Below, piece after piece: positions 4,027-51,676 of a stretch of 64,000 bases of DNA. Numbering within the stretch: the stretch's first letter is position 1; the number at the start of each line of letters is the position of its first letter. Position numbers and translations under genes: made by a program. This stretch comes from Pycnococcus provasolii (lineage: Eukaryota; Chlorophyta; Pseudoscourfieldiophyceae; Pseudoscourfieldiales; Pycnococcaceae): positions 1-64,000 of the forward strand of contig OW568891.1 in NCBI GenBank assembly GCA_938743325.2, written 5' to 3'. A model generated the notes under the pieces. It did not search any database. It had not been told where the DNA came from and saw nothing but the letters and a program-made list of their open reading frames with translations.

Positions 4027-4081
4027 TTTAAGTTGAAAGTAACCAGATTTCGTATGACAAACACGTACGTGACATCCACCG

Positions 4082-4588
4082 TCATCTTTCCCCGACGTTT
4101 TTGTTCACCGGAACCCACACGAACGGAGGGTCGAAGAGTTTGTACGCCTCAGCGGCACACACGACCGTCTCGTGACGTGAAACCTCGTCTAGCACCTTCA
4201 CACTTGGACGGTAGTCCGAGTGGTCAAAGAATAGCTCGGTTATTCGGCGACTCGTGCCACAGCGGACGTCGATAGGTGCCCTCCCTAGCAGCTTGTAGAA
4301 GTCAAGACGCGTGGGCACTTGCGACAAAGATAGCAGTGTTTCCTCGTCGATGGTGAGCCGGTGGTATGCGTCCGGGTGTGCCTCGCCGCGAGTAGTCGCC
4401 TCGAGCTTCAGAGCCTTCCTTCGCGCCGACTTGGCGCCAGTCTTGCAAAGTTTTCTTCCATGTGCCACCGCGGCTGCTATCATCACGGCTAGCATGCGTG
4501 GGATATGATTTATACCAAGAGCCCTGCGCACGACGAGAAATGCGACTAGCAACGCACGTCGAGCATCGAGCGTCGACGCGTCAAGCAT
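4082..4588 (-). CDS. Unrecognised 168-aa protein in the subtelomere
   Basis: ATG at 4588. The N-terminus (about 1-40) has a hydrophobic stretch rich in Ala, Leu, Val and Arg (ALLVAFLVVRRALG, MLAVMIAAAVAHG) that could be a membrane or targeting segment. A basic linker (KTGAKSARRKALK) follows, then a globular C-terminal half with an H-E-V-V-C-A-A-E-A-Y-like helix. No family recognised. It is convergent with the 359-aa ORF on its left. The composition is coding-like, but no homologue comes to mind, so it may be lineage-specific. Confidence 0.35.
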   Translation of the reverse strand: MLDASTLDARRALLVAFLVVRRALGINHIPRMLAVMIAAAVAHGRKLCKTGAKSARRKALKLEATTRGEAHPDAYHRLTIDEETLLSLSQVPTRLDFYKLLGRAPIDVRCGTSRRITELFFDHSDYRPSVKVLDEVSRHETVVCAAEAYKLFDPPFVWVPVNKNVGER

Positions 4589-8192: not shown

Positions 8193-8260
8193 GGCTCGTG
8201 GGTGTTGGGAGTGTGTGGTGTGGAGAGAGAGCAGAGGCCGAGGGGGTGGCCGTGGCGTCG

Positions 8261-8279
8261 CCCTAACCCTAACCCTAAT
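8261..8279 (+). promoter_or_regulatory. Telo-box-like element in the arsM/RRP12 divergent promoter
   Basis: Three consecutive CCCTAA units stand alone in the 215-bp gap between arsM and RRP12, 129 bp before the RRP12 ATG. In plants the telo-box (AAACCCTAA) is a known promoter element of ribosome-biogenesis genes; applying that role here is inference. Confidence 0.4.
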
Positions 8280-8407
8280 CCAAGCATCATACGCCACAGA
8301 TTCCCAGGCTGCAGCCGCCGCCACCTTGCCCCCTCCCCCCCTCGCCCAGTCGCACTACTGGACACTCCCTCACATCACATCACAGCGCATCGCAACCACT
8401 GAGTAGC

Positions 8408-12910: not shown

Positions 12911-13265
12911 AGTCGCGCCGCCATTGATAAGTTTAGCGTCGTCTGTGTTGTGTAGAACGAAAATTTATGACTATTCGCCGCCGCGGGTGCCGCCGCGGGG
13001 CACGGAAAGAGCCAAATAACGAGGTGGACATCACAGGCATTCCACGATGGATCCCGGTTCAATGATTGGCCTAAAACCCATCACTTGTATTTCGGAAACT
13101 CCAAGTCCAAGAAGAACCCCATTCAGTTGGTCTATGAATCACACTATCGTGAACAGCTACCGTACATCCGGGGAGGAAGGAAGCAAGGAAGTGACCACCA
13201 GAGATAATAGTTGCACAACAGTAGTGCAGCAACCGCGCAACAACTTCTTCACAACTCATCATCAC
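12911..13265. other. Intergenic between RRP12 and the first CotH gene
   Basis: No separate gene. The CotH frame remains open up to an ATG at 13047, so part of this stretch could be coding if that start is used. Contains a GCCGCCGCGG palindromic patch near 12975-12998. Confidence 0.4.
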
Positions 13266-15326
13266 ATGGCAACGACGATGTGGTCGACGACGAGACTCGT
13301 GCTTATGATCGCAGCAGCAGTGATGGTGACTGTTGTGGAAACAATAGCAGTGCTAGTCTCTGCGCAGTTGTCATCGTCATCCTACCAACAACCACCATCC
13401 TACACTGCAACTGCAATACAACAACAACAATCGTCACGAAATCATCAGCAACGACAACAATTGTGGACTCCTCCCTCGTTTCTCAAAGACAGCACCGTGA
13501 TGCAGTTCGAGTCCGCTCTCCCAATCATGGTCGTGCGTCCATCAGCGCGGATCGTTGACGAACCAAAAGTTGCCGCATACATGGTGCTAAGTAGCTGCAG
13601 CGTGTCAAAGGAGCGGTGGGACACATCCGCCCTTTACGCAAACAAGCAGGAAGACAGCAATGACGACGACGACGACGACGACGACGACGAAAACAGCAAC
13701 GATTACGACGATATTCATAATCACTACTACTACGGCGTTGTCGTCAGCAGCAGCACAAGCAGCAGCAGCAGCAGACGTAAGGCTCCCGTATCGAGGAGCA
13801 TGACGGAGGCGCAGCGTGCGGTTGCGGCAGCAAGGCAGCGCGCTGCGGACCTCACGAGTGAGAACATTTATGGCATAGGTGCGAACGTTCGATGCTCGCT
13901 CGATGGCGATTCAGCAGTCGCACCGCCCAACTACGAGGGCACGATTGGCCTCGAACTTCGCGGTCGCAGCTCCATTGAAAATGAGAAAAAGTCCTACGGA
14001 GTGGAGCTTTGGGAAAACACCAATGGCGGCGACACGTACGATTTTGCTGCTGAGGAACAAGGTGAAGATCGTCAACGACGACAATCGCCGTGGGCTACTA
14101 CGCTCGGTGCCGCCGCCGACGACGATAATCGTCGTCGCGTTGATCGTAAGGAGTCGTTGCTGGGAATGCCGAAGGAAGCCGATTGGGTGCTGTATGGTCC
14201 GTTTTTGGACAGAGCTCTCATACGCACGCCAGTGTGCTATCACCTCTGGCGTGCCGCCGGCCACTGGGGCCCGCGCACACGTGCGGTGGAGCTCTTTCTA
14301 CAAACGCCGCCATCAAGAGGCAAACTCGACACCACCACGCCGATCGACGAAGCTGCACACTATCAAGGTGTCTACATACTCTTGGAGAAGGTCAAGCGCG
14401 ATCCCAATCGCCTGGATGTTCAGAAGAAGGTGAACGCAAGTACGCCCGCGTCAGATCACGGGTACATCCTCGAAACGCCGTCGGAGTACCCCAACCGACC
14501 TCTGCCGTTTGGAACGTTCACGACGCCAGTTTCACGCATCAAGTGGGCTCCCGTGTATCCAAAGCGAAACGAGTACGGGCAGGAGCAGAGCACGTATATC
14601 TACGATTACATTCAGGACTTTGAGCGCGCGCTCTTCAACCGCAATTTCCGGCATCCTACTCTCGGAACAGACTACACATTCTACGCCGATCTCTACAGCT
14701 TTGCCGACTACGTCCTTCACACGGAACTCATTCGCAACGTTGACGGGTACATTTGGAGCGTGTTTCTGCACAAGAACAAGGCTGGCGCGAAGACGAGCGA
14801 TCGTGGTCGACTGCAGCTTGGTCCGCCGTGGGACATGAACATGGCACTCGCCAACGCCGATTACAACTATGCGACATCACCGCAAGGTTGGCACTACCGA
14901 TTCGTGACGGAAACACGTGGGCGACACGTGGTTGGCGCGCTACGAACAGACAGAATGGAGGGTGGCAAGGTGGGCAAGTGGATTGCGCGCATGCTCCAGG
15001 ATGACCGTTTTCTTGCTGGTATCAAGCGTCGTTGGCGCACACTTCGCCGCGGTCCGTGGGCAAATGCGGCTCTTTCGAAGGCGGTTGACGACGCTGCCGG
15101 GCCTCTTCGCGTTCGAACACGAGGGAGCGCAACCGCGCGCGACACAAGTGCCTCAGAGCGCAACTATATGCGTTGGGACATCCGTTTCCCAGAAAACAAG
15201 CCTCGCGTTTCCGTGCACGTACCACTGCGTCCTGTAGGATGGGAAGCGAGCTGGGACAACGAGGTAGGAAAAATGAAAAAGTACTTGCTGGAAAGGGCGG
15301 CGTGGATCGACACACAACTCATTTGA
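13266..15326 (+). CDS. Secreted CotH-kinase family protein, copy 1
   Basis: CotH proteins are atypical secretory-pathway kinases first known from Bacillus spore coats, and also cell-surface proteins of mucoralean fungi. The ATG at 13266 (686 residues) places a hydrophobic signal segment (RLVLMIAAAVMVTVVETIAV) right at the N-terminus. An earlier in-frame ATG at 13047 would put 73 polar residues in front, which is less plausible for a secreted protein. A Gln/Ser/Asp-rich linker (to about 190) precedes the CotH domain, seen as LRGRSSIENEKKSYGVEL (about 236), KEADWVLYGPFLDRALIR, YQGVYILLEKVKRDPNRLD, and the family hallmark LGPPWDMNMALAN (about 518) with the catalytic/metal-binding Asp. The end (MKKYLLERAAWIDTQL) matches the usual C-terminus of the family. 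A second family member lies at 51677-53518. Convergent with FtsHi. Confidence 0.88.
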   Translation: MATTMWSTTRLVLMIAAAVMVTVVETIAVLVSAQLSSSSYQQPPSYTATAIQQQQSSRNHQQRQQLWTPPSFLKDSTVMQFESALPIMVVRPSARIVDEPKVAAYMVLSSCSVSKERWDTSALYANKQEDSNDDDDDDDDDENSNDYDDIHNHYYYGVVVSSSTSSSSSRRKAPVSRSMTEAQRAVAAARQRAADLTSENIYGIGANVRCSLDGDSAVAPPNYEGTIGLELRGRSSIENEKKSYGVELWENTNGGDTYDFAAEEQGEDRQRRQSPWATTLGAAADDDNRRRVDRKESLLGMPKEADWVLYGPFLDRALIRTPVCYHLWRAAGHWGPRTRAVELFLQTPPSRGKLDTTTPIDEAAHYQGVYILLEKVKRDPNRLDVQKKVNASTPASDHGYILETPSEYPNRPLPFGTFTTPVSRIKWAPVYPKRNEYGQEQSTYIYDYIQDFERALFNRNFRHPTLGTDYTFYADLYSFADYVLHTELIRNVDGYIWSVFLHKNKAGAKTSDRGRLQLGPPWDMNMALANADYNYATSPQGWHYRFVTETRGRHVVGALRTDRMEGGKVGKWIARMLQDDRFLAGIKRRWRTLRRGPWANAALSKAVDDAAGPLRVRTRGSATARDTSASERNYMRWDIRFPENKPRVSVHVPLRPVGWEASWDNEVGKMKKYLLERAAWIDTQLI

Positions 15327-20578: not shown

Positions 20579-21847
20579 ATGTCGCCCTGGGAGAAGCGCA
20601 CCGTCGCCAAGGCGGCGACCACCGCCGCGCCCAAGTCCGGTGGATCCGCAGCCGCGCGTGTACTCACGCTCGCCATCGGCGCGGGACTCGGGTGGATCGC
20701 GCGCGCAGGCGCGCCGAGCGTCTCGGCGTTCGCGTCGACGGCGTTCGTGCCGCCGCGCAAGCCTGTGTCGACGACGCGATCGAAGGAGCAGCTGAAGGCG
20801 GCGCGCGACTCGGCCAAAAAGGCGTTCCTCGCGGCGTTCGACGGCATTCGCGACGAGCTTCTCGCCGACCCCGTGATTGCCGTGCAGCCAGCCACCGGAC
20901 AGACGTGGATGAAGCGCGTGCTCGACTACAACGTTCCTTTCGGGAAGCTGAACCGGGGCATGGCTGTTGCTGACACGCTTGCCGTGCTTCGTGGCGTCGA
21001 GGATGCCAACGCGCTCAGCAAGTCCGACCTGAAAGATGCGCACGTGCTCGGGTGGTGCATCGAGTTGCTGCAGGCTTTCTTCCTCGTGGCGGACGACATC
21101 ATGGACGACTCCGTCACGCGACGAGGCCAGCCTTGCTGGTTTCGCGTCGAGGATGTCGGCATGGTTGCTATCAACGACGGCATCTTGCTGGAGAGCGCCA
21201 TCTATCGCCTGCTGAAGAACCACTTTGCCAAGCACCGGCGGTACGCGGACATGCTCGAGGTGTTCCACGAGGTTACGTTCCAGACGGCGACGGGTCAGAT
21301 GCTCGACCTCATCACCGCACCCATCGGAAAGGTGGACCTCTCCAAGTACACGATGGAAACGTACACGAACATCGTCGTGTACAAGACGGCATTTTACACA
21401 TTCTACCTTCCCGTGGCGTGCGGCATGCTGCTCGGCGGCGTGCGGTCGACGAAGGCTTACGATACCGCGAAGGAGATCTGCGTTGCGATGGGCGAGTACT
21501 TCCAAGTGCAGGACGACTTCCTTGACTGCTACGGTGCACCCGAGGTGATTGGCAAGATTGGCACGGACATCGGCGACAACAAGTGCGGATGGCTTGTGTG
21601 CAAGGCGCTGCTCAAGGCGAACGACGCGCAGCGCGAAGTGATTGCGAAAAACTACGGAAAGCCGCACGACTCGGTGGCGGAGGCGGCGGTCAAGGCTGTG
21701 TACAACGAAATGGACCTCAAGTCTGAATTCGAGGCTTACGAAAACAAGTCGTACGAAATGTTGAGGTCGATGATTGACACGCAGAAGGACTTGCCGGTTG
21801 GTATTTTCGACGAACTGCTCGCGAAGATTTTCAAGCGATCCAAGTAA
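20579..21847 (+). CDS. FPS: Farnesyl diphosphate synthase (short-chain trans-prenyltransferase)
   Basis: Condenses dimethylallyl/geranyl diphosphate with isopentenyl diphosphate to farnesyl diphosphate, the precursor of sterols and protein prenyl groups. The 422-residue protein carries the first Asp-rich motif DDIMDD followed by SVTRRGQPCW (about 172), and the second motif DDFLD in YFQVQDDFLDCYG (about 311). IGTDIGDNKCGWLVCKAL and a C-terminal KIFKRSK are typical of eukaryotic FPPS. The aromatic AFF just before the first motif (ELLQAFFLVADD) fits a farnesyl-length product. The N-terminus is about 75 residues longer than cytosolic FPPS, with a hydrophobic segment (ARVLTLAIGAGLGWIARAG), suggesting organelle targeting or a membrane anchor. 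Single exon, ATG at 20579. Confidence 0.92.
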   Translation: MSPWEKRTVAKAATTAAPKSGGSAAARVLTLAIGAGLGWIARAGAPSVSAFASTAFVPPRKPVSTTRSKEQLKAARDSAKKAFLAAFDGIRDELLADPVIAVQPATGQTWMKRVLDYNVPFGKLNRGMAVADTLAVLRGVEDANALSKSDLKDAHVLGWCIELLQAFFLVADDIMDDSVTRRGQPCWFRVEDVGMVAINDGILLESAIYRLLKNHFAKHRRYADMLEVFHEVTFQTATGQMLDLITAPIGKVDLSKYTMETYTNIVVYKTAFYTFYLPVACGMLLGGVRSTKAYDTAKEICVAMGEYFQVQDDFLDCYGAPEVIGKIGTDIGDNKCGWLVCKALLKANDAQREVIAKNYGKPHDSVAEAAVKAVYNEMDLKSEFEAYENKSYEMLRSMIDTQKDLPVGIFDELLAKIFKRSK

Positions 21848-22036: not shown

Positions 22037-23692
22037 CTAGCTGTACTCCTTCATGAGGTTGTTGTGGAACGTGGTGATGTTTGTGATGACTGTTTCGATA
22101 TCCTGCTCGGATGGTAGAAATGTCGTGCGGAAGTGATGTGTGCCAGGAACTTGCCCAAACCCGCTGCCAGGCACGGTGACGACGCCCGTGGCGTCGAGCA
22201 TCTTCATGCAGTAGTGCATGTCCGGCTCACGCCCAATTTTTTTCGCCTCCGCGCAGAATTTGTCAGGCAAGTACAGGCGAGGGAAGGCGTACAGCGCACC
22301 TTCCGCAGGATTGCACGAAACACCCTCGAGGCTATCGAGTGCGGAAGTGAGCCTCACCGCACGCCGCTTGAGCGATCCAAGCACGTCGTTCTTCTCCCTC
22401 TCGTACAGTTCGTAGCTCGGCTCGCCTGGCTTGGGTGGATTCATCACCAGCGCCATGCATATCTGCCCGGAGATGTTGCTGCACAGCGAAACGGAAGCAA
22501 GCTTTAGGAAAATGTCCTTCACCTCATCGTTGATCCCAATCACCTCCATGTATCCCGCGCGCCGTCCACATTCGCCGTAGAATCCCTTCGACACGCTGTG
22601 CATGGAAATGAGCGGGAAGTCGGCGTACTCCGATCCAAGGTCGCGCACAATCTTCTTGAAGCTCGTGAACTTCTTGCCCTCGCGGTACACGTTGTCCTGG
22701 TACACCTCGTCGGCGACGAGAAGCAGATTCTCCTGCTTGCAGAACTGCACCACCGCACGCTGGTCAGCCTCGTCGAGAACCTGCCCCGTGGGATTGCCCG
22801 GGTTGATCACGACCATCGCACGCACGACCGTTCCTTCGGCACGAGCCTTGTCAACGCACTCCTTGAGGTGGTTGACATCCATTCCCCATCCCTTCTCTTC
22901 CGCGAGGTAGTATGGCACGAGCGACCCGTCGTACAGCTCGAGGGTTGCGCTGTACAGCGGGTACTGTGGCATGGGAGTGAGGACGCCGTCCGACTTGTTG
23001 CGCAGCAGCGTTTTCATAAGGTAGTGGCACGTCGGGCTCGCACCGTCCGTCAGGAAGAGGTCGTCCGGACTGCACGGGTGTCCGTCACGCTTCTCGATGG
23101 CCGCTGCCACCTCCTGCCGAAGCAGAGCGACGCCCTTGCTCTGGCTGTACGCACCCACGCCTCCTGGTATGGCTGCGAGGTATCGCCGTGCGCGCGCGAC
23201 GGCGTCGGCGGGGTACAGTTCCTCCACCTTGGGGTTGTCGAGCACGTCAGGGTAGTCGCACAGCGCGAGCACCTGCCGGAAGAACGACACGGGTTTTTGG
23301 CCCAGCTGCTGCGGGTTTCCGATGTTGCAGTACACGACGCGGTCAAACGGCAGATTCGAGCCCTTCCCGCTTGCAATGTCGGCGGCGTACTCGTACGCCT
23401 TGGCGACAATCTCCCCACGCACGGCATACTTCGCCTCCCTGGCGTTTGGGTTGACGTTCGTGACGTCGACGGTCGGCGTCATCGCCGCGACGGTTGACGT
23501 CATGCGCAAGACTTTCTCCGCGGAAGCGTGCATGTGTCCCTGCTGTGCTGCGGCGGCGGCGGCTATGGACATGTTGTGAAGTTGATAGGAAGGAGGCGTG
23601 TGCTTGCTTAGTGTGGTTGTCGTACTTGCGTTGAGTAGGTATTGTAAGGTGAGAGCACGTTTACGCGCAGGTGCGAGTATGCGAGCGAGCAT
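22037..23692 (-). CDS. Alanine aminotransferase / glutamate-glyoxylate aminotransferase family
   Basis: Class I PLP aminotransferase of the alanine aminotransferase branch. In plants the same branch provides photorespiratory glutamate:glyoxylate aminotransferase, converting glyoxylate to glycine. The 551-residue protein begins with a mitochondrial-type leader (MLARILAPARKRALTLQYLL). The family core starts at VDVTNVNPNAREAKYAVRGEIV (about 76). Recognisable blocks are YCNIGNPQQLGQKP, FLTDGASPTCHYLMK, VVINPGNPTGQVLD, LLLVADEVYQDNVY and the PLP-lysine site SVSKGFYGECGRRAGY (Lys at about 369). There is no peroxisomal C-terminal signal (ends LMKEYS). It is the first of three neighbouring genes of glyoxylate metabolism. 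The substrate preference (pyruvate or glyoxylate) cannot be settled from sequence alone. Confidence 0.92.
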   Translation of the reverse strand: MLARILAPARKRALTLQYLLNASTTTTLSKHTPPSYQLHNMSIAAAAAAQQGHMHASAEKVLRMTSTVAAMTPTVDVTNVNPNAREAKYAVRGEIVAKAYEYAADIASGKGSNLPFDRVVYCNIGNPQQLGQKPVSFFRQVLALCDYPDVLDNPKVEELYPADAVARARRYLAAIPGGVGAYSQSKGVALLRQEVAAAIEKRDGHPCSPDDLFLTDGASPTCHYLMKTLLRNKSDGVLTPMPQYPLYSATLELYDGSLVPYYLAEEKGWGMDVNHLKECVDKARAEGTVVRAMVVINPGNPTGQVLDEADQRAVVQFCKQENLLLVADEVYQDNVYREGKKFTSFKKIVRDLGSEYADFPLISMHSVSKGFYGECGRRAGYMEVIGINDEVKDIFLKLASVSLCSNISGQICMALVMNPPKPGEPSYELYEREKNDVLGSLKRRAVRLTSALDSLEGVSCNPAEGALYAFPRLYLPDKFCAEAKKIGREPDMHYCMKMLDATGVVTVPGSGFGQVPGTHHFRTTFLPSEQDIETVITNITTFHNNLMKEYS

Positions 23693-24275
23693 GCACAGAT
23701 GAGGGGGGCTGGAGGGGAATAGCTTGCCAACGAGGATGGCTTGGAAGGGGGAGGGACCCGGGGGAAGGGAGGCGCCGACAAGGGGTGACGTGCCCCTCCT
23801 CCCCTTCGAAAAGATAAACGGGGATAGGATTTCTCCCTCCCATCTTGGCCCCTTCTTCGGTGCTTGATTTTTTTGTCTATCAAAATCAATCGAGCTTCTT
23901 TGTCCCGCGGCTTCTTTGGGCTCCCTATCGTAAGTCTGCTTGGGCTCTTTCTTTCGGGGTTACCCTGTTAGACTTTAGGGGTCCTTGTTGACCTGCTAGG
24001 TGCTGTACACTACCAACACGTTTATCAGCTCGCACAGCTCATCATGGTGATGAAACTCAGTGGAATCGTGCACGACCATGTATCAGGTAAGAAGGAAAAA
24101 GAAAAACAATTCCATCTTTGATCTTCGTTACTTGAAAAAATTAATTGACTTGACTGATTTTATTGTTCACGTCACACAACCGCACACTCCAATCTCTCAC
24201 CTTCCACCTTATCGACATCTCCTCTCTCTTCGTCTTCAGCCAGACTTATTTTTAAGAAAAATAAAAGCCTGCTCC
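23693..24275. other. Intergenic upstream of AlaAT
   Basis: 583 bp between tandem minus-strand genes. GC-rich near the AlaAT start and AT-rich after about 24090. CAATCAAGC-type AT-rich motifs and TTTTT runs near 23868-23882, no gene recognised. Confidence 0.4.
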
Positions 24276-25595
24276 TTACGCCGTCGCCTCCACGGGCATG
24301 CCAAGCACGTCGTCGAAACCCTTCTCCAGACGGCTCACAGTCAACGCGCGATCCTTGATTTTATCAAGGCCAAACAGACCTATGCGGAACGTGTGGTTGC
24401 CCTTTGGCTCGTCAATCATAAACGGAACGCCCGCCGCAATCTGGTATCCCTTCGACTTGAACTTTCCAAACATGTTCGGGTCGTCGGTGTACGCAACCAC
24501 AACACCTGGCGCGTGGTACCCGTCCGCGGCAACTGTCGTGAATCCCTTGCTTCCCATCATCTCGCGAACCTCCTCGCCAAGCTTGACGAAGTCCGTCTTT
24601 GCATTGTCAAAGCCGTACTGCTGAGTTTCTCGCGCAACGTCGCGGAACAGCTGGATCGCATCCGTGGGCATGGTGGCGTAGTACATGAACCCTCCGTTCT
24701 CGTACGACTCCGCGACGTCAAGCCACTTGGAAAGGTTCAGCACCATCGACGTGGGCTTCATCGTGCGCACAACCTCCGTCGCTCGCTCGCTCAGCATCGC
24801 AAGGCCAACGCAAGCTGGTCCCGTCCATCCCTTCTGAGGTGCGGATATGACGACGTCGACGTTCTGCGCCTTCATGTCCACCCAGTACGTTCCGCTCGCT
24901 ATGCAGTCGAGCACGAAGTGGCCGCCGTGCTCCTGGACGGCGGCACCCACCGCCGCGACGTACTCGTCGGGAAGCTTGATTCCCGTCGACGTCTCGATGT
25001 GCGGCGCAAACACAACCGCGGGCTTCTCGCGCTTGATGGTTGCGACGACATCCTCGAGGTTGTGCGGCGTAAACTGCGGCCTAGGTCCCGACCCTTGAGG
25101 CTGACCTTTGAGCACAGTCACCTCGCTCGGTATGCCCGTCTGCTCGAAGATGTCCGTCCAGCGGTAGCTAAAGTACCCGTTGCGCAGCACAAGCACCTTC
25201 TTGTCTGTGGCAAAGGCGCGCGCGCAAGCCTCCATGCTGTACGTCCCACTTCCTGGGAACATGAGTGCCCTGTGGCTGTTGTACGCCGTGTTCAAGATGC
25301 CGTTGAGGTCCCTTGTGATTTCGCCGAACGGATCGCTCATGTGGTTGAGTGCTCGGTCGGTGTACACGACGGAGTACTCGTACAGTCCTCCGTTGTGGTC
25401 GAGCGGGAGCGGCTTTTTGTGGAACGACGCGTCGCATGTAGAGGATGACGACGCCGACGACGCTGACGCCGACGACGCCGAGGAGGAGGAGGAGGAGGAG
25501 GAGGAGGAGAACATGCGCTGGAAGACCGATGCTGAGATGCGGCGAGCAAGCCCATCACTGCCGGTGGTCGCTTTCAGCGCGAGAGAGCGGAGCAT
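24276..25595 (-). CDS. Class V aminotransferase, serine/alanine-glyoxylate aminotransferase type
   Basis: PLP enzyme of the AGT/SGAT fold, which transfers an amino group from serine or alanine to glyoxylate. The 439-residue chain starts with MLRSLALKATTGSDGLARR and a Ser-rich run ending near residue 50, a strong mitochondrial presequence. The core shows MFPGSGTYSMEA (about 92), VFAPHIETSTGIKLP, the Asp that binds the PLP ring nitrogen in FVLDCIASGTYW, and the Schiff-base lysine in ISAPQKGWTGPACVG (about 254). C-terminal ADGYHAPGVVVAY and FRIGLFG are also typical. No peroxisomal signal (ends PVEATA). Upstream, at 25896-27190, a recombinase element separates it from the divergently oriented glycolate dehydrogenase. 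Family call is firm; donor specificity is open. Confidence 0.9.
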   Translation of the reverse strand: MLRSLALKATTGSDGLARRISASVFQRMFSSSSSSSSSSASSASASSASSSSTCDASFHKKPLPLDHNGGLYEYSVVYTDRALNHMSDPFGEITRDLNGILNTAYNSHRALMFPGSGTYSMEACARAFATDKKVLVLRNGYFSYRWTDIFEQTGIPSEVTVLKGQPQGSGPRPQFTPHNLEDVVATIKREKPAVVFAPHIETSTGIKLPDEYVAAVGAAVQEHGGHFVLDCIASGTYWVDMKAQNVDVVISAPQKGWTGPACVGLAMLSERATEVVRTMKPTSMVLNLSKWLDVAESYENGGFMYYATMPTDAIQLFRDVARETQQYGFDNAKTDFVKLGEEVREMMGSKGFTTVAADGYHAPGVVVAYTDDPNMFGKFKSKGYQIAAGVPFMIDEPKGNHTFRIGLFGLDKIKDRALTVSRLEKGFDDVLGMPVEATA

Positions 25596-25893
25596 CGTGC
25601 CGTGTTACCCCGGGAGACTGCTGCGAAGATTTGTGCGAGTGGATGACGGTGGCAAGCAAGCAAGCGCGAAAGAAGAGGTCCAGGGAACACGGGAAAGGGA
25701 AAGGGAAAAGGGGAGGGTTATTCGCCTCGCCTCGCCTGGCCTTCTGGGCGAGGTCAAAGGACCAAGGGCCCCTCGGACGAGTCTCGGAGAAGATCAGCTT
25801 TAGGGGCACCTGGCGGCCAGGAAACACCGGGGGAGATTCTCATTTCTCCGCCTTCTTCCAACCACCACCACGAGGCAGAAACACAGAAATAGA
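25596..25893. other. Upstream region of the class V aminotransferase
   Basis: GGGAAAGGGAAAGGG-type purine tract (25691-25712) and CGCCTCGCCTCGCC (25724-25737). No gene. Confidence 0.4.
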
Positions 25894-26072
25894 ATTATCC
25901 CCCGTTCAATCGGTAGTTGCCAAAAGACGCATAGTTACACTTTTTCTTACCTGAGTAGTGTGTCCGTCTTTATAACCGGGCCACAGATGGTTCCCCAAGA
26001 ACAAACCTTAACAAGGCGTGTCTGTGACATGCCGGTCACCTCACGAGAGAGGAAAGCGGGAAGGGTGGGAGG

Positions 26073-26251
26073 GTGTGCTCACGAAAGCCGGAATGGCGTC
26101 GCCATACGCGAACGCCTGTCCAGCCCTGAACCAGGGCTGGCCGAGTTTGTGAGCCGTCCAGCGATGGTCCCCCAACAGGAAACCTCGCTGCCCAGCTAAC
26201 AGGGTCTCACTGACCCTCATCACTGGAAAACCTACATTACTCCGCAACATC
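26073..26251. repeat. Split direct repeat A2 (179 bp)
   Basis: Identical over 179 bp to 27012-27190. Starts GTGTGCTCACGAAAGCC and ends CTCCGCAACATC. Directly abuts the 30-bp B1 repeat. Confidence 0.9.
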
Positions 26252-26332
26252 CATTATCCCCCGTTCAATCGGTAGTTGCCAATTAGAAACAGTGGTAGGA
26301 AGGCGGGGACGGAGGTGGTGTGGATGCACGCA

Positions 26333-26977
26333 TTAGCCAGCAGCATCGCGTAGCCATCCAAAGAAGTAGCGCGCAGCATCAGTAGAGCGCCACGAGGGGT
26401 CGATGTATGCATCTTGCATAACGTCGGAACCGCGAGCCCAGCCACCATATAAGCAGAGCTTGAGGAAATCCTTGCAGACGGCATACGCCGCAGAGGCAGC
26501 ACCTGCCCGCAAGGAATGCGAAGTCCATTTGCATCCAGGTGGTGGTTGGTGTCGTGGGGCGAGACGCTTCAGCACCCGCTGAAGCATGTCATCAATAGAA
26601 GTGGCGAGCCAGCGGCCAGTATCAGATGGAAGTTGCCAAAAGTATTGGCAACGCAGATGGCTGGTGGCTCGAGTGAAAGCGCGGAGCAGTTGGAGGCAAT
26701 CCAATTTGTCAGCGCAGTCGATCGTTAAGAGCCGCTTTGTTAGTTTCTTGGATTTGCCCTTGAAATTTCGTTCGACGAAATTTAGTTGCTGCCGTTCCTC
26801 ATCAATCCGTAAATCGGGCAGCATCGCATCGGGCCCGCAACGTTGGAGCTGAAACGCAGTGTCCGAACGGTTGAAGAAGAGATAGCTTGTCACCAGACAA
26901 GCGCAATCTCGAAGGAGCTGCAAATCCAAAGAAGGTTGGGCAGCAGCAGCCAATCCACAATGCAAGACTGACTTCAT
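26333..26977 (-). CDS. Tyrosine recombinase domain of the split-repeat element
   Basis: A 214-residue frame from the ATG at 26977, about the size of a catalytic domain. An Arg-containing helix (FFNRSDTAFQL, about 36) is a candidate for the first catalytic Arg. A later block reads TSHSLRAGAASAA (H-x-x-R, about 152), GGWARGSDVMQDAYIDPSW and AARYFFGWL, which fit the second catalytic box (with Trp in place of the second His) and the nucleophile Tyr region of tyrosine recombinases. This wording (SHSLRAG, YGGW) is common in recombinases of DIRS/Crypton type rather than phage integrases. The N-terminal DNA-binding part is short. It lies between the split repeats, supporting its role in mobilising the element. 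Confidence 0.7.
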   Translation of the reverse strand: MKSVLHCGLAAAAQPSLDLQLLRDCACLVTSYLFFNRSDTAFQLQRCGPDAMLPDLRIDEERQQLNFVERNFKGKSKKLTKRLLTIDCADKLDCLQLLRAFTRATSHLRCQYFWQLPSDTGRWLATSIDDMLQRVLKRLAPRHQPPPGCKWTSHSLRAGAASAAYAVCKDFLKLCLYGGWARGSDVMQDAYIDPSWRSTDAARYFFGWLRDAAG

Positions 26978-27011
26978 CCACCCGTACTACTAGTAGTCGG
27001 AGGCTTCGTGA

Positions 27012-27190
27012 GTGTGCTCACGAAAGCCGGAATGGCGTCGCCATACGCGAACGCCTGTCCAGCCCTGAACCAGGGCTGGCCGAGTTTGTGAGCCGTCCAG
27101 CGATGGTCCCCCAACAGGAAACCTCGCTGCCCAGCTAACAGGGTCTCACTGACCCTCATCACTGGAAAACCTACATTACTCCGCAACATC
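27012..27190. repeat. Split direct repeat A1 (179 bp)
   Basis: Outer copy, identical to 26073-26251; the right boundary of the element as seen here. Confidence 0.9.
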
Positions 27191-27826
27191 ATAGAAATAC
27201 AAATCGAGGTCAGGTTGGGGGGGGAGCGGTATACCCACACGCCAAACCCTCGTCCTCGTGCCTCATCATGCCTCCCGTGACGTCACGTCGCACACGAACC
27301 ATTCCTGTGCCAGGCTTGCATTTCCTTCGTGTTTGTTTGATTTTTTTATCTTCGTTCGAGGGCTCAGGTCTTGGAGAAATCTCATCTCCTTCTTCAACAA
27401 AATCTTAAGCACGCGCGCCTTCACTCGCCACCACGGCACCAACTCAACAACTGAACAAGGTAAGCTGGTAAGGTACCCCAGGGTGGCGGCTAGGAAATCA
27501 AACAGACAGAACAGAAAAAGAAGGACAAAAAGCAACCCCAAAACCAACAAGAGAAAAATGGTACCAACCTGGTAAGATTAGCACACTGCATGCGCGCATT
27601 ACCACACCAAGGCGCAAGCAAGCAAAGACTGATACCGATACTAATCCGTTGGTGCAGATTGAAGTAATCCCCTCAACAAGGGCCTTCCCCCGAGGGCCCC
27701 CGAGGTGCTCGATCCCAATCCCCAAACAAACTCCCCCTCGGGCTCTGGTGACGTGGTCCGTCCCACCAGAGAACCCACCAGAGAAATCCCACTCGGCAAA
27801 ACCTCACAAACAAACCTCCCTCCGCC
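27191..27826. other. 5' region of the glycolate dehydrogenase gene
   Basis: No protein gene. It includes a probable 5'-UTR intron (27460-27657) and a tract with CCCCCGAGGGCCCCCGAGG near 27690. AT-rich stretches at 27325-27360. Confidence 0.45.
27460..27657 (+). other. Probable spliceosomal intron in the 5' UTR of the glycolate dehydrogenase gene
   Basis: Donor CAAG/GTAAGC at 27460, a branch-point-like TACTAAT at 27639-27645 and acceptor TTGGTGCAG at 27657, giving 198 bp. The branch motif is near the yeast-type consensus and sits 12 nt before the acceptor. It lies 169 bp upstream of the ATG, so would not change the protein. An alternative donor (CTG/GTAAGG) follows a few bases later. Confidence 0.4.
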
Positions 27827-30800
27827 ATGGGCCTCCTAGCGCACAAGGGCGCCATGGTGCCCGTCGCAGCAGCAGCTCGACTCACACTCGCGCGCTCAGC
27901 ATCAGCGGCGGCGGCGGCATCCTCATCCTCCAGCGCTGTGCCACCTGGCGCGGCTCCTCCCTCTTCAGGAGCAGGCTCAACAACCGCAGCTACCACAGGT
28001 GGTCAGAAGCAGTCCTCAGCAACCCCTCCTCCTCCTCCTCCTCCTCCTCATCTCACAGCAGCAGGGTTCGCGAGCCAGCCGGCGATGAAGACTGCTGCTG
28101 CCACGCAGCACCAAGTCACCGTATCGGCAGCACAAGACCTGTCGTCATCAGAATACCAAAACGTTGACGGACTCCGCTACGACGACGGAAGATACGCGAC
28201 GTTCGTCGAGTCCATACGCGACACCATCGTGCCGCCGGAGAGGATCATCACTGACGCCGTGCGAACGTATGCGTACGGAACGGACGCGTCGTTCTACCGC
28301 CTCGTTCCCAAAATAGTTGTCAAGGTGCACAACGAGGATGAGGTGTCTCAGATTCTCGTCCAGGCGAACAAGCACCAGACACCCGTCACCTTCCGCGCCG
28401 CGGGAACGTCTCTGTCCGGCCAGGCGGTCACCGACAGCGTGCTCATGAAGCTGTCGCACACGGGCGACCACTTCCGCAACTACACCATCCACGGAAATGG
28501 AGAGCAGATCACCGTTGAGCCTGGCCTCATCGGTGGGGAGATCAACCGACTGCTTGCGGCGCACCGACGTACGTGCGGACACGAGCAGCAGTACAAAATC
28601 GGGCCTGATCCAAGCAGCATTGACAGCTGCATGATTGGCGGAATCATCGCCAACAACTCCTCGGGCATGTGCTGCGGCGTGTCGCAGAACACGTACCACA
28701 CGCTCAAGGATATGCGCATCGTCCTGCTCGACGGCGCCGTTCTGGACACCGCGGACGAGGCGTCGAGGGCGTCGTTCATGAAGAGCCACGCGCATCTCGT
28801 GTCTGGCGTCGTCGACCTCGCCACGCGCATCCAGGCTGACGAGGAGCTCGCCGCGCTCATTCGACGCAAGTATTCCATCAAGTGCACCACGGGGTACAGC
28901 CTGAACGCGCTCGTCGACTTCCCGCCCAGCGATCCGATTGAAATCATCAAGAGGCTGATGATTGGTTCCGAGGGAACGCTCGGATTCATCTCACAAGCAA
29001 CCATCAACACCGTGCCAGAGTACGACAACAAGGCTTCCGCCTTCGTCGTCTTCCCCACCGTGAAAGATGGCGCCGGAGCCGCATCCGTGCTGCGCAAGAC
29101 GACGATGGTGGACGCCGTCGAGCTCTTCGACACTGCCAGCCTGCGGGAGTGCGAGGGCAACGCGCGCATGCGCGAGCTCGTGCCGTCCATCGTCGGGTGC
29201 GACGAGGGGACGACCGCGCTGCTCATCGAGTGCCGTGGAAAGGACAAGGCGGCTCTGGACAAGCGCATTGCCGAGGTGGTGCGCGCCATCAAGGAGGCGG
29301 ATCACATCAACATCACGGGAAACGACGTTGAGGCGTACCCGTTCTCGGAGGACAAGGACGTGTTCAACGTCTACTGGGACGTGCGCAAGGGCCTCATCCC
29401 CATCGTCGGTGCCGCAAGGGAGACGGGAACGTCGATGCTCATCGAGGACGTCGCGTGCGACGTCGACAAGCTCGGTGACATGATGGAGGACCTCATCGAG
29501 ATGTTCAAGCGGCACAAGTACCACGACGCGTCGTGCTTCGGCCACGCGCTCGAGGGGAACCTACACCTCGTCTTCTCCCAGGGATTTCGAAACGACGAGG
29601 AGATTGAGCGGTACAGCCAAATGATGCAGGAGCTGTGTGAGATTGTTGCGGACAAGTACGGAGGGTCGCTCAAGGCGGAGCACAGCACGGGGCGCAACGT
29701 CGCGCCGTTCGTGGAGATGGAGTGGGGATCCAAGGCGTACAACCTGATGTGGGAGCTGAAGCGCCTCTTCGATCCCAACGGAATTCTCAACCCGGGCGTG
29801 ATTCTCAACGAGGATGAGGACGTGCACAAGAAGGCGCTCAAGGCGTCGCCGCCGGCGGATGCCATCGTCGACCGGTGCATCGAGTGCGGGTTCTGCGAGT
29901 CCAACTGCCCGTCGCGAGATCTCAGCCTCACGCCTCGGCAGCGCATCACCGTGTACCGCGAGATGAGCCGGCTGCGCGCCATGGACGCCTCCGAGCTCAC
30001 CGTGGAGGATGCGCAGCGACTGCGCGAGTTCGAGACGAACTGGACGTACAACGGCGAGCAGACGTGCGCGGCGGACGGCATGTGCCAGGAGAAGTGCCCG
30101 GTGAAGATCAACACCGGAGAGCTCATCAAGTCGATCCGCAGCCGCAACCTCGCGGAGGGTCACGCCACCGAGCTCCGTGCGGCGGACTTCGCCGCGCGCA
30201 ACTGGGGTACACTCGATCGTCTCGTGCCCACGGGACTGGGCATTGCAACAGCTGCCGCCAGCGTGCTCGGCGACGGCGTGCTCACGTCTGTGTCCAAGGC
30301 GCTCAACAGCGTGTCGGGAGGTTGGGTTCCCGTCTGGAACAACTACATGCCTACCGGAGCGAAGAGCGCGCACTTCGAGGTGGCGACGAATGCCTCGTCG
30401 CCGGCGCCAGCGGCGGCTGAGCTTCCTCCCGTGGAGGCGATCTACCTCATGGCGTGTCCCGCGCGAACGATGGGGCCCGCACGCGGCGACGAAGGTGCGG
30501 GTGGTCGCAGTGTGCCGCAGGTGCTTCGCAGCCTCGCGGACAAGGCGGATGTGGACCTCAAGCTGATGCCCAACGCGACTAGCCTGTGCTGCGGACTCGC
30601 CTTCTCGTCGCGTGGACTTCAGGCGGCGGCGGAAAGCAAGGGTGATGAGATGGTCGACGCGCTCGTCAAGGCTACTGACAATGGACGCATTCCCGTCGTC
30701 TGCGACACGAGCCCGTGCATGGCGCACATCCAGATGTCCGCCATGGCGAAGTCGCCCAGCATGCAGTTCCTCGAACCTGTGGAGTTCACGCAGCGCATCC

Positions 30801-31171
30801 TCGCTCCGCGCCTTGACTTCTCCAACCCGCGAAACGAACCGGTTGCAATCCACGTGCCCTGCTCGAGCAAAAAGCTCGGCAAGGAGGCGGCGTTCGGAGA
30901 TCTTGTTTCCAAGTGCTGCAACGGTACGGCGCCCGTGTCAAGCGGAATTCCCTGCTGCGGCATGGCTGGTGACCGTGGACTCCGGTATCCGCAGCTCACC
31001 GCGAGCAGCCTTCAGCACCTGAAGCTGCCCGACAACATCAAGGATGGATACTCGACGAGTCGCACGTGCGAAATCTCCTTGTCAAACCACAGCGGCAAGC
31101 ACTTCCGCTCCGTTCTCTACCTCGTGGACGAGGTGACGACGCCAAAGAAGTCAAGTTCCGCATCCGCTTAA
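27827..31171 (+). CDS. Glycolate dehydrogenase-like FAD/iron-sulfur oxidoreductase
   Basis: A 1114-residue fusion equivalent to bacterial GlcD plus GlcF. Green algae use such a protein (GYD1 in Chlamydomonas, about 1100 residues) in mitochondria to oxidise photorespiratory glycolate to glyoxylate; D-lactate is the usual alternative substrate. Residues 1-100 are Ala/Ser/Pro-rich, a likely presequence and linker. The FAD-binding PCMH domain shows TFRAAGTSLSGQAV (about 190) and GPDPSSIDSCMIGGIIANNSSG. The FAD-oxidase C domain ends near FDPNGILNPGVIL. Two 4Fe-4S ferredoxin motifs follow, CIECGFCESNCP (about 684) and CAADGMCQEKCP (about 746), then two CCG-type cysteine modules: SLCCGLAFSSRG (about 920) and GIPCCGMAGDRG (about 1042). 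Next to two glyoxylate aminotransferases, which favours glycolate as substrate. No peroxisomal C-terminal signal. Confidence 0.9.
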   Translation: MGLLAHKGAMVPVAAAARLTLARSASAAAAASSSSSAVPPGAAPPSSGAGSTTAATTGGQKQSSATPPPPPPPPHLTAAGFASQPAMKTAAATQHQVTVSAAQDLSSSEYQNVDGLRYDDGRYATFVESIRDTIVPPERIITDAVRTYAYGTDASFYRLVPKIVVKVHNEDEVSQILVQANKHQTPVTFRAAGTSLSGQAVTDSVLMKLSHTGDHFRNYTIHGNGEQITVEPGLIGGEINRLLAAHRRTCGHEQQYKIGPDPSSIDSCMIGGIIANNSSGMCCGVSQNTYHTLKDMRIVLLDGAVLDTADEASRASFMKSHAHLVSGVVDLATRIQADEELAALIRRKYSIKCTTGYSLNALVDFPPSDPIEIIKRLMIGSEGTLGFISQATINTVPEYDNKASAFVVFPTVKDGAGAASVLRKTTMVDAVELFDTASLRECEGNARMRELVPSIVGCDEGTTALLIECRGKDKAALDKRIAEVVRAIKEADHINITGNDVEAYPFSEDKDVFNVYWDVRKGLIPIVGAARETGTSMLIEDVACDVDKLGDMMEDLIEMFKRHKYHDASCFGHALEGNLHLVFSQGFRNDEEIERYSQMMQELCEIVADKYGGSLKAEHSTGRNVAPFVEMEWGSKAYNLMWELKRLFDPNGILNPGVILNEDEDVHKKALKASPPADAIVDRCIECGFCESNCPSRDLSLTPRQRITVYREMSRLRAMDASELTVEDAQRLREFETNWTYNGEQTCAADGMCQEKCPVKINTGELIKSIRSRNLAEGHATELRAADFAARNWGTLDRLVPTGLGIATAAASVLGDGVLTSVSKALNSVSGGWVPVWNNYMPTGAKSAHFEVATNASSPAPAAAELPPVEAIYLMACPARTMGPARGDEGAGGRSVPQVLRSLADKADVDLKLMPNATSLCCGLAFSSRGLQAAAESKGDEMVDALVKATDNGRIPVVCDTSPCMAHIQMSAMAKSPSMQFLEPVEFTQRILAPRLDFSNPRNEPVAIHVPCSSKKLGKEAAFGDLVSKCCNGTAPVSSGIPCCGMAGDRGLRYPQLTASSLQHLKLPDNIKDGYSTSRTCEISLSNHSGKHFRSVLYLVDEVTTPKKSSSASA

Positions 31172-31266: not shown

Positions 31267-32850
31267 TTATATTAATTCGCCCTCCTCTGGCTCCTCCATC
31301 TGCTGTCGACGCTCGCGCTCCTCCTCCTCGCCCTCAGAGTCGCCAGAAAGGTCGTGCACATCGTGCACGCGTTGACGGCGGTGCGGTGGCTCATTGCGAG
31401 GGTCATGCGGTGGCTCGTCGTAGCGATCTCGCTTCCGGCTGCCACCGCCTCTGTCGTCGTATCGCCGTCTGTCGTCGTACCTGTCACGGTCATCGTACCG
31501 ACGATCGCGCCTATCGTCTCGTCTACCTCCATACCCGCCGCCGCCGCCGCCACCACGGTAGTGTCCTGGGTCGCCGCCGCCGCCGCCGCCGCCTTGTCGC
31601 CGCCTGTCGTCGTAGCGACGCCGATCGTCGTACCTGTCACGGTCGTCGTGCACACGCCGATCGCGAGGGTCGTCGTATCTGCGATCGTGGCCACGTTCAT
31701 CGTACCGGCGATCGTGGCGGTCACGGTCACGGTCGTCGTAGCGACGACGGTCGTCTCGTCGGTCGTACCCACCTCGTTCGCCGCCGCCGCCGCCGCGATG
31801 ATGCTGATGCCTGTGATCACCGCCTGCGCCAGCGCCCGCCGCGTCGTCGCGCCGGCGTTTGCTGCCACCAAGTCCACCTCCAAGGCGCATCGGCCTCCAT
31901 TCGGGCACCGTGCGCCCTCTCTCAACATCCACGACGATTCGCTTCCCCTCGATGTCGCGTCCTTGTGCGGCGCGAAAAGCGCGCTTCATGTCATTCTCCG
32001 ATTCGTACTCGACGAATGCATACCCGCGACTCTTCGCATGCGCCGCATCTGCGTCGGTAGCACCACGCTCGCGTACGAGGCGAATGCGCACAACCTTGCC
32101 GTACTCGCTCATGATTCCGTGAAGCTGCTGTTCTGTGACGTTTTTGCTGAGACGGCCGACGAACAGCGTGCAGAACGGTTCGCTGTCGCCGTTAATGTTC
32201 GGGTCGTTCTTCGGGTCGTAGCGTGCGAGCGCCTCCTGCAGAGCGAGCTCGGCGTCGCGCCGCCGTTGCTCCTTGCGCTGCTGTGCGGCGTCGCTTGCTC
32301 GCTGCGCCTGTCGCGGCGACGCGGCCTGTCGCTCCTGGCGTGCTGCGTCGTCCGTATCCTCTTCAAAGAACTGCGTGAACGCCGCGACTCCGTCGACGCG
32401 ACTGCCGACGCGCATCCTCTGCGGCACAGGCTTCATGTGCTTGAGCGGTTCTCGCGCCGTGAACCAGACGAGCAGTCGCGGCGGCAGTCCCGTTTGGTGC
32501 TGCAGGCTTGCGCTTCCTGGCGCCATGCCCGTGGGCATGTTCGGTCCAATGTTGTGCCTGTAGCTGATGAGTGGTTTCGTGCGGTCTGTTTCCTGGAGCA
32601 CTTTCACGACGCTCGCGCCTACGTTGACGTTGGGCATAGCTGGTGCAGAACCCCCTGCTTGTTTGTGCTGCTGCTCCCCTGCTGTCCACAAGTTGGGGGA
32701 TATACCCATGGTCATCGTCGGAGGCGGCATGGGTGGCGGGAGAGGCATTGGGAGCGGCGGGATGGCAGTAGGCGGGAGAGGCGGAGGTATGGCATTATTC
32801 AGGGTCAAAGGCGGAGGCGGTCCAGGCGGAGGTGGTGGCCTGGACGCCAT
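31267..32850 (-). CDS. SNRNP70: U1 snRNP 70-kDa protein (U1-70K)
   Basis: Core U1 snRNP protein that binds stem-loop I of U1 RNA for 5' splice-site recognition. The family N-terminus, normally at residue 1, is here at about 122 (LPPRLLVWFTAREPLKHMKPVP), preceded by an unusual Pro-rich extension (MASRPPPPPGPPPPLTLNNA and onward). An Ala/Arg/Gln helix leads to the RRM (about 222-305) with RNP2 CTLFVGRLS and RNP1 SRGYAFVEYES, and GKRIVVDVERGRTVPEWRPMRLGGGLGG, which is diagnostic for U1-70K. The C-terminal 200 residues are Arg/Asp/Tyr/Gly repeats (RYDDRDR-type), ending in an acidic EEPEEGELI. The Copia insertion begins 71 bp upstream of its ATG. Confidence 0.93.
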   Translation of the reverse strand: MASRPPPPPGPPPPLTLNNAIPPPLPPTAIPPLPMPLPPPMPPPTMTMGISPNLWTAGEQQHKQAGGSAPAMPNVNVGASVVKVLQETDRTKPLISYRHNIGPNMPTGMAPGSASLQHQTGLPPRLLVWFTAREPLKHMKPVPQRMRVGSRVDGVAAFTQFFEEDTDDAARQERQAASPRQAQRASDAAQQRKEQRRRDAELALQEALARYDPKNDPNINGDSEPFCTLFVGRLSKNVTEQQLHGIMSEYGKVVRIRLVRERGATDADAAHAKSRGYAFVEYESENDMKRAFRAAQGRDIEGKRIVVDVERGRTVPEWRPMRLGGGLGGSKRRRDDAAGAGAGGDHRHQHHRGGGGGERGGYDRRDDRRRYDDRDRDRHDRRYDERGHDRRYDDPRDRRVHDDRDRYDDRRRYDDRRRQGGGGGGGDPGHYRGGGGGGGYGGRRDDRRDRRYDDRDRYDDRRRYDDRGGGSRKRDRYDEPPHDPRNEPPHRRQRVHDVHDLSGDSEGEEEERERRQQMEEPEEGELI

Positions 32851-32920
32851 GATACGTCTGCTGCTATGATGGAGAGGGCGAGGGAGATGAACAACCAGAA
32901 GAACAAGAACCAGCCGCCAC

Positions 32921-33127
32921 TGTCGAGATTATACCTTATATGCCTTGTGGGGAACCGTTGTTGAGGACTCGGGATCCCAGAGGGAAAGGGGACGCAATAG
33001 GTCGATTGGTCAAGATAGGCATCCTGACCAACCGACCTAAACTCCCCCTAGGGATAAGGGGGCGCGGCCCCTGGTTGTCTAAGTTGTAAGACCACTCTTT
33101 TCTTTTCTTTTCTACTTATTCTCTTCA
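32921..33127 (+). repeat. Left LTR of the Copia derivative (207 bp)
   Basis: Identical to 40042-40248 over its length; TG...CA ends and adjacent GCCAC target duplication on the outside. Ends with a TTTTCTTTTCTTTTCT tract. Confidence 0.95.
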
Positions 33128-33601
33128 GGTTATGAGCCTCAAGTTGTGAAACAGCTACGCTACCTTAAGTCAGCCTACGAAACTTCACAGTCTTTGAGTA
33201 CACTTACTTGGCCGCCGAATACACTTTACAGCTCACAAATATATTGACTACAGAAAAAACGCGAAAAGAAACTGCGTAGTGAAAAACAGCTTTCGACCTA
33301 TTTTCCCGTTGTGGAAGGTGGTCAGACCACTTCGAGAAACCTTATCCTGGCAAGATACGGTTATCCAAACCTAACATCTTGAAGTGCTGAACATAAAAAA
33401 GTTATTCTGCGCAGTTTCCAACCGTTTTTGGCTTGGTCAACCTTGATACTATTTTCAGCCGTCTACTTACGCCTCGCAAGACGCCATACCTGAACTGGCG
33501 GCGCCGGTGGGGACTTTTCAGAATTCGGGGTTCACACATCGCGAGTTTAGGGGTTTGGATTCTCTACTTTTGGAAAAAACACAGGGGAAGTTGACATTGG
33601 G

Positions 33602-33906
33602 ATGTACTCAGCTGCTGTCGGAACGGAGAACGAAATTTGGATTTTGGTCTATGTGGATGACATCATCTTCGCATCCAAGAACGAGCAGACAAAAGACATC
33701 TTCGCCGGACACCTCCGCAAGAAGTACAGAATTACCGAACCAGCACAACTGACATGGGCACTCGGAATGAAGGTATCGTTCGCAGCAGATGGCATCATCC
33801 TCACTCAAGATCTTTACGTGAGTAAGATACTTGAAAGGTTTGGTTTCACATCGGCCGCAAAATCAGCGACGACTCCGCTGGCCCACGGAACGACACTTAC
33901 GCGGGC
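33602..33906 (+). pseudogene. Copia reverse-transcriptase fragment
   Basis: The C-terminal part of a Copia-type reverse transcriptase, with the catalytic YVDDIIFASK block and the following LTWALGMKVSF and LYVSKILERFGF segments typical of the family. Interrupted at its right by the nested LTR element. Treated as a fossil of the Copia derivative. Confidence 0.85.
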
Positions 33907-33911
33907 AGATG

Positions 33912-34283
33912 TGATGGAGTGTGAGATGCCTGTGGGTGATTGGGGGATTGGGTGGAGCCCATGCCCCAATCTGTGTGTGAGGGGGGACCCCTGTCTTTGG
34001 GAATAAAGGATTTGATTGTGATTTGAATATGTGAAGGAGTAGGGTCAAGACGTTTTGTCTTCCCTATCCCAGGGTCAAGACGTGGGGCGCGACCGTGCAC
34101 CACGGCTCGCACCCTGTCTTTCCCTACTTTGTGTAATCATTCTACTTCTCTTCTATGTCTTCCTAAGGTACACACACTCGTTACACTTAGGGTTGGAGAC
34201 TGGGAGAGGGGTATAGAGGCTGGGCGCCATGGCGTCACACAAGGTGACGTTAAACCCACACAGGTACACCGTAGATTCCATCA
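33912..34283 (+). repeat. Left LTR of the nested element (372 bp)
   Basis: Identical to 38672-39043. Contains two AGGGTCAAGACG repeats about 40 bp apart and GAATAAAGG. Confidence 0.95.
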
Positions 34284-51559: not shown

Positions 51560-51676
51560 AGCGAATGGCTCGCGACGTCCGGGAGCGATGAACGGTTCTC
51601 TTTCCAAAGGACGGGTCCCACCTCACTCGTTTTTTAATTTAGATTTTCTCTCCGGTCAATCTTTTTCAATTCACAG

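Follow-up and report, generated by a model that had tools for sequence, protein, structure and literature searches.

The window analysed here covers the initial 64 kb of contig 31 (OW568891.1) of the Pycnococcus provasolii genome, which comprises 32,333,900 bases in 46 contigs. It contains three neighbouring genes that we weighed as a candidate photorespiratory gene neighbourhood:

22037-23692, minus strand: gene 1, alanine aminotransferase (AlaAT)-family enzyme (AlaAT, possibly also a glutamate-glyoxylate aminotransferase), placed by its matches to the structures 3tcm and 3ihj and to Pfam Aminotran_1_2
24276-25595, minus strand: gene 2, 3ke3-type bacterial class V aminotransferase, not a canonical serine-glyoxylate aminotransferase (SGAT), placed by its match to 3ke3 and by a tree
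27827-31171, plus strand: gene 3, fused FAD-binding/4Fe-4S 2-hydroxyacid dehydrogenase (candidate for glycolate and/or D-lactate), placed by the domains FAD_binding_4, FAD-oxidase_C and Fer4

The genes lie at the coordinates and on the strands given to them by a sequence-only reading of the window, and all three are long frames without introns. The open frame of gene 1 has its first ATG at 23692, and the frame of gene 3 is unbroken over 3,345 bases. Genes 1 and 3 matched Pfam families across most of their length. The three genes had been described as consecutive. This is true of genes 1 and 2, where we recognised no gene in the 583-bp gap. It is true of genes 2 and 3 only if a mobile element at 25886-27190 is left uncounted in their 2,231-bp gap. 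The organism is photosynthetic and green-type, since the chlorophyll a/b-binding family has 51 matches across the genome (many light-harvesting genes) and Lhca chains are among the best solved-structure matches of one such protein. The light-harvesting gene set thus agrees with the nuclear, green-type genome assumed before.

Enzyme families and targeting signals

Gene 1 matched two solved alanine aminotransferases: 3tcm strongly and across the entire enzyme domain (598.8 bits, residues 159-639 of 640), and 3ihj at 455.7 bits. We take these structures to be the barley and the human enzyme, respectively. The assignment of gene 1 to the AlaAT family was therefore confirmed. A six-frame search of the alga's own genome with gene 1 gave six matches. 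Since the other five were partial, with identity of at most 33%, gene 1 is the only AlaAT-family enzyme found in the genome. The glutamate-glyoxylate aminotransferases of plants fall within this family, and the lack of a peroxisomal signal in gene 1 does not discriminate between the two kinds of enzyme.

Gene 2 had been read as a serine/alanine-glyoxylate aminotransferase, and this label had to be given up. A Pfam search of gene 2 gave no match. Its best solved relative is the chain 3ke3 ('Putative serine-pyruvate aminotransferase'), with 381.8 bits over 367 residues, while the serine-glyoxylate aminotransferase 6pk1, presumably the Arabidopsis enzyme, reached only 26.7 bits, which rules out gene 2 as SGAT. 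The canonical SGAT is located on contig 26 (546421-547929), where the stretch 546547-547731 gives 407.5 bits to 6pk1, and gene 2 is therefore another enzyme. About 50% identity over the domain and a conserved lysine place it in the 3ke3-type family. In a four-sequence alignment it was 54% and 49% identical to two bacterial members, and K255 and R404 were invariant; by analogy, we take them to be the pyridoxal phosphate lysine and the carboxylate arginine. Relatives with 51-54% identity occur in Caballeronia, Paraburkholderia and Burkholderia, 182 records of a plasmid collection match, and the family is present in at least 570 confirmed stretches of prokaryote genomes. Gene 2 also matched weakly the NCBIfam families of aspartate-glyoxylate aminotransferase (82.4 bits, cut-off 650) and 2-aminoethylphosphonate aminotransferase (80.6 bits, cut-off 360.8), and these similarities suggest glyoxylate or pyruvate as the acceptor.

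The genome has a second 3ke3-type gene on contig 1 (436684-437850; L022 and L143), which is 51% identical to gene 2. Its N-terminus is hydrophobic and signal-like, not Arg-rich, and its C-terminus is KSEL. The algal copies differ from the 3ke3 family by a presequence or a signal-like N-terminus. The family tree had 43 rows: 36 loci, four plasmid rows, 3ke3 and the two rows from this alga, which were the sole eukaryotic ones. The loci were 39 hand-picked from 80, less three dropped because of stops (L060, L086 and L093). The two algal copies paired with support of 99/98 outside the other 41 rows. Their donor cannot be named, because the branches are long and the midpoint root served for display.

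We also read the bacterial neighbourhoods of the gene 2 family at 80 of the at least 570 loci, with nearly full 10-kb flanks on each side in 54 of the 80. These neighbourhoods do not support an origin of the cluster by transfer of a bacterial operon: in the flanks covered, none of the 80 loci had a close homologue of gene 3 or any homologue of gene 1 (E 1e-5). Distant FAD homologues with 21-23% identity were found near the gene 2 relative at four of them. No neighbour family recurred widely among the 80 loci (after the gene itself came its own antisense frame at 10 and the next cluster at 6). No FAD/Fe-S dehydrogenase was annotated in the four plasmid regions of the family that we read, where the PLSDB gene tables are incomplete. 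A single-sequence scan of genome contigs gave no relative.

Gene 3 carries the FAD_binding_4, FAD-oxidase_C and Fe-S (Fer4) domains on a single chain. It had been called a GlcD-GlcF-type glycolate dehydrogenase. It does stand as a dehydrogenase with fused FAD and Fe-S parts, in agreement with glycolate oxidation in algae; the narrower name does not, given scores far below the curated cut-offs for GlcD (TIGR00387, 169 bits against 567.9) and GlcF (NF008434, 22.9 bits against 333) and relatives that are partly in lactate operons. The YdiJ D-2-hydroxyglutarate dehydrogenase was rejected as well (146.9 bits against 1350). A search of the plasmid collection gave 737 matching records. The best relatives are Azospirillum proteins, which are 47% identical across 86% of the query length. 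They share the fused architecture and are annotated as FAD-binding/(Fe-S)-binding protein in an lldP-lut operon, from which their substrate is inferred; the algal gene is a stand-alone unit with a long extension at its N-terminus.

Chlamydomonas GYD1 is likewise a single fused chain. Gene 3 resembles it as a green-algal candidate for glycolate oxidation and in lacking a C-terminus like the type 1 peroxisomal targeting signal (PTS1). GYD1 is reported to oxidise glycolate in mitochondria (PMC12174325). With lactate genes beside its relatives in 5 of the 11 bacterial neighbourhoods read, both glycolate and D-lactate are likely substrates of the gene 3 enzyme. Such a dual role would be natural, since the Chlamydomonas glycolate dehydrogenase is stated to have similar catalytic efficiency with D-lactate and glycolate (PMC4722173, citing Aboelmy and Peterhansel 2014).

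Besides gene 3, the genome has three FAD-oxidase_C (PF02913) genes, and no Fe-S part was seen by eye in the frames read. L024 on contig 36 is D-2-hydroxyglutarate-dehydrogenase-like (513 bits to the mitochondrial enzyme 6lpn). L027 (contig 13, 237089-237919) is D-lactate-dehydrogenase-like, with 145 bits to the mitochondrial 8jdc over part of the protein, and its frame is interrupted by two stops within the match (intron, error or decay). The third, L026, is on contig 28. Since L024 and L027 resemble dehydrogenases for D-2-hydroxyglutarate and D-lactate, the fused enzyme would be left free for glycolate. Two FMN-dehydrogenase genes, L028 and L029, cover the whole domain, and both, as we understand it, depart from plant glycolate oxidase (GOX) at diagnostic positions.

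None of the three proteins of the locus ends in a PTS1-like tripeptide (EYS, ATA and ASA for genes 1, 2 and 3), as had been noted before. Mitochondrial-looking presequences had been claimed for all three. For gene 2 this is clear by eye; genes 1 and 3 have Arg/Lys and few acidic residues in a way that is not diagnostic. Counted over the first 40 residues, Arg+Lys against Asp+Glu stands at 5/0 in gene 1, 5/1 in gene 2 and 3/0 in gene 3, with maximal hydrophobic moments of 0.33, 0.50 and 0.27, respectively. Gene 1 has an N-terminal extension poor in acidic residues. These measures are weak, because the adjacent polyprenyl synthase reaches comparable values (5/1 and 0.46 on the same crude measures). 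Gene 2 looks to have the clearest mitochondrial-type N-terminus, and the Ala/Ser-rich N-terminus of gene 3 could equally be compatible with the plastid.

A second gene pair on contig 26

The canonical SGAT is also not alone. In the stretch 543500-550500 of contig 26 (L144), a gene resembling hydroxypyruvate reductase (HPR) at positions 691-2061 on the minus strand and the SGAT gene at 2922-4430 on the plus strand stand head-to-head. The two divergent genes are 860 bp apart, between the minus-strand ATG at 2061 and the SGAT ATG at 2922. The HPR-like gene encodes a D-2-hydroxyacid dehydrogenase. Among solved structures it comes closest to glyoxylate reductases (6bii, 198.3 bits); the human-type glyoxylate/hydroxypyruvate reductase 2gcg gave 148.5 bits. 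Its best NCBIfam match is glyoxylate reductase with 243.2 bits, below the cut-off of 455, and we take it to resemble plant HPR1. The steps of the pair are consecutive, because the hydroxypyruvate formed by SGAT is what HPR reduces. Photorespiratory genes therefore lie close together at two places in the genome, which has two photorespiratory neighbourhoods. The clustering proposed for the window became more credible through this second pair.

Other photorespiratory loci are scattered. The GDC-P gene is on contig 27, and serine hydroxymethyltransferase (SHMT) genes are on contig 7 and twice on contig 17. GCV_T is on contig 3, with two weak matches on contig 31 (482520) and contig 4, and genes of the phosphoglycolate phosphatase family (PF13344) are on contigs 15, 19, 1 and 8.

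We estimated how often such pairs would arise by chance with a core set of 15 loci, which was assembled with the data already in view, excluded gene 2 and counted three SHMT and three phosphatase genes. A pair was defined as two loci within two gene steps, contig ends were ignored, and the gene number (8,000-13,000) was estimated by eye from the density in the window. Over this range, and with this post hoc set, at least one pair is expected in 3-5% of random gene orders and at least two pairs with a probability of 0.0004-0.0011. The low probability supports, without proving, a functional cluster. The divergent regions of the two neighbourhoods had 16 9-mers in common, where shuffling gave 8.0 on average and reached 16 in 10 of 300 shuffles; we did not use this result as evidence.

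Mobile element and surroundings

Between genes 2 and 3 lies an inserted element with the following parts:

25886-27190, no strand assigned: truncated copy of a multi-copy mobile element, recognised by matches in the alga's own genome
26062-26251 and 27001-27190, no strand assigned: copies 1 and 2 of a 190-bp direct repeat, 97% identical, from a repeat search
25894-25923 and 26253-26282, no strand assigned: identical copies of a 30-bp direct repeat, from a repeat search
26333-26986, minus strand: tyrosine-recombinase-like fragment, recognised by its motif by eye, with no Pfam match

The element has 33 matches in the genome including itself, on contigs 15, 18, 22, 10, 6 and others. Its insertion is recent, because it shares 98-99% identity with its counterparts on contigs 15 and 18 (99% to contig 15:301091-302182, 98% to contig 15:549776-550863 and 99% to contig 18:71291-72198). 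A fuller copy on contig 15 is about 2.3 kb long and has a 533-aa frame with no Pfam match; no other long frames were seen in it. A search of the element against phages gave no match. We assume that it may be related to Crypton or DIRS elements. Subtracting the element would leave 926 bp between the divergent genes 2 and 3.

Two further genes, both identified by family search, flank the locus:

20579-21847, plus strand: polyprenyl synthase
31267-32928, minus strand: U1-70K-like RNA-binding protein

Elsewhere in the window, a reverse transcriptase fragment (RVT_2) is located at 33551-34006 on the plus strand, and two genes with a CotH kinase domain are at 13020-15326 and 51638-53518. Further along contig 31, two arrays of six chlorophyll a/b-binding genes each (133072-142609 and 360395-366434) gave 92.2 bits per gene, and the equal family scores suggest that the twelve genes are near-identical. 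The Lhca-like protein L010 on contig 36 (302348-305782) matched the very long LHCI chains of PDB 9vfj with 307.6 bits, far above the 171 bits that it gave to ordinary Lhca1 chains.

Interpretation of the neighbourhood

We consider the locus to be a real photorespiratory gene neighbourhood in a green-algal nuclear genome, with a probability of roughly 0.55. The substrates, the mitochondrial location and the functional reason for clustering are what we infer. Most likely, the gene 3 enzyme would work in mitochondria, where it would form glyoxylate from glycolate (and pyruvate from D-lactate) and hand the electrons to the respiratory chain. From glyoxylate (and pyruvate), the sole AlaAT-family enzyme would then produce glycine (and alanine). 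The gene 2 enzyme would be a second aminotransferase, probably with a small 2-oxoacid (glyoxylate or pyruvate, for instance) as its substrate, and the downstream steps would be encoded by the divergent SGAT and HPR-like genes on contig 26.

Several observations weigh against a photorespiratory neighbourhood. AlaAT has general duties in nitrogen metabolism, and gene 2 is of bacterial type and has no established tie to glyoxylate. The mobile element splits any promoter common to gene 2 and the dehydrogenase. The shared 10-, 11- and 12-mers of the two divergent regions showed no excess (their numbers were reached by 62, 100 and 300 of 300 shuffles). By eye, no photorespiratory neighbours were seen beside GDC-P (about 3-4 kb), the three SHMT genes or GCV_T (1.5 kb). 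L029 (contig 29, 102035-103084) is similar to FMN-dependent 2-hydroxyacid oxidases, ends in SKL and would be a glycolate or L-lactate oxidase. This SKL-bearing enzyme alone does not amount to peroxisomal glycolate oxidation, because the GOX-like enzyme of Chlamydomonas is reported to prefer L-lactate (PMC7020209). The same paper has chlorophytes use glycolate dehydrogenase. Finally, Chlamydomonas gyd1 mutants are described as growing like the wild type at low CO2, with higher glycolate excretion (PMC12174325).

A bolder version of the photorespiratory reading would organise mitochondrial photorespiration into two divergent nuclear modules, one from glycolate to glycine, made up of the dehydrogenase, the AlaAT and gene 2 as a new mitochondrial glyoxylate aminotransferase, and one from serine to glycerate, made up of SGAT and HPR, each regulated as a unit and kept by selection. 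We regard this version as speculative and doubtful. In favour of the photorespiratory neighbourhood itself are published accounts of Chlamydomonas: photorespiration and CO2-concentrating genes are placed under the common regulator CIA5 (PMC12174325), and AAT1, GYD1, HPR1 and SGA1 transcripts are described as going up in the hours after a shift, where that paper treats induction of the CO2-concentrating mechanism (PMC11548211).

The locus might instead serve lactate, alanine and pyruvate, with gene 3 chiefly a mitochondrial D-lactate dehydrogenase that yields pyruvate, AlaAT converting this to alanine, gene 2 a further aminotransferase that uses pyruvate, and photorespiration incidental. Among the bacterial neighbourhoods of gene 3 relatives, read for 11 of the 25 listed, a lactate permease and/or lut genes adjoin the relative in five: two Azospirillum brasilense records, A. 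lipoferum, Aquabacterium and Skermanella (permease only). These include the closest relatives in the plasmid collection, and this count also speaks against the photorespiratory reading. The other six (Vibrio, Martelella, Indioceanicola, Pseudoalteromonas, Alteromonas and Hymenobacter) had neither, and the Alteromonas relative is itself annotated as lactate dehydrogenase. No class V or alanine aminotransferase was annotated in the stretches read of the 11 neighbourhoods. A lactate role would also agree with the D-lactate activity of the Chlamydomonas enzyme and with the weak similarity of gene 2 to 2-aminoethylphosphonate:pyruvate transaminases. However, L027 is a separate, if partial and interrupted, D-lactate-dehydrogenase-like gene, chlorophytes reportedly oxidise glycolate with a dehydrogenase, and we recognised no better glycolate-oxidising candidate in the genome. 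We therefore hold a lactate neighbourhood to be unlikely, though it is to be taken seriously.

That metabolic genes came to lie side by side by chance in a genome dense with genes, with meaning assigned afterwards, is in our view quite improbable. In favour of chance, one near-adjacent pair is expected in 3-5% of random gene orders, gene 2 has no demonstrated role in the pathway, a mobile element already sits in the interval and the 80 bacterial loci read for the gene 2 family lack close homologues of genes 1 and 3 in the flanks covered. Against it, the separate SGAT-HPR pair lowers the probability to 0.0004-0.0011 and a photorespiration cluster is reported from other green algae (PMC7826186).

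The sequence-only reading had called the clustering unusual for an algal nuclear genome, and the literature does not support the idea that it is an isolated case. Foflonker and Blaby-Haas 2020 (PMC7826186) surveyed ten green algae and recovered five functional clusters reported earlier, photorespiration among them, and passages of that survey credit the photorespiration cluster to Foflonker et al. 2016 on Picochlorum and state that four earlier-described neighbourhoods, unnamed there, are co-expressed in Chlamydomonas. For Picochlorum SENEW3, a photorespiration cluster is named and some clusters are described as co-expressed under salinity stress (PMC12198440). The likeness to the Picochlorum cluster is that photorespiratory genes are physically clustered in a green-algal nuclear genome. 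A literature search with exact phrases for a photorespiratory cluster matched only an unrelated wheat paper. On the published passages, photorespiratory clustering in green algae is already known and the present locus is a further example.

If functional, the neighbourhood would add a case from a central carbon pathway to the eukaryotic gene clusters outside secondary metabolism. It would also flag an uncharacterised aminotransferase family as possible glyoxylate enzymes. Two modules in one genome would then be a concrete test case for why algae cluster the genes of a pathway.

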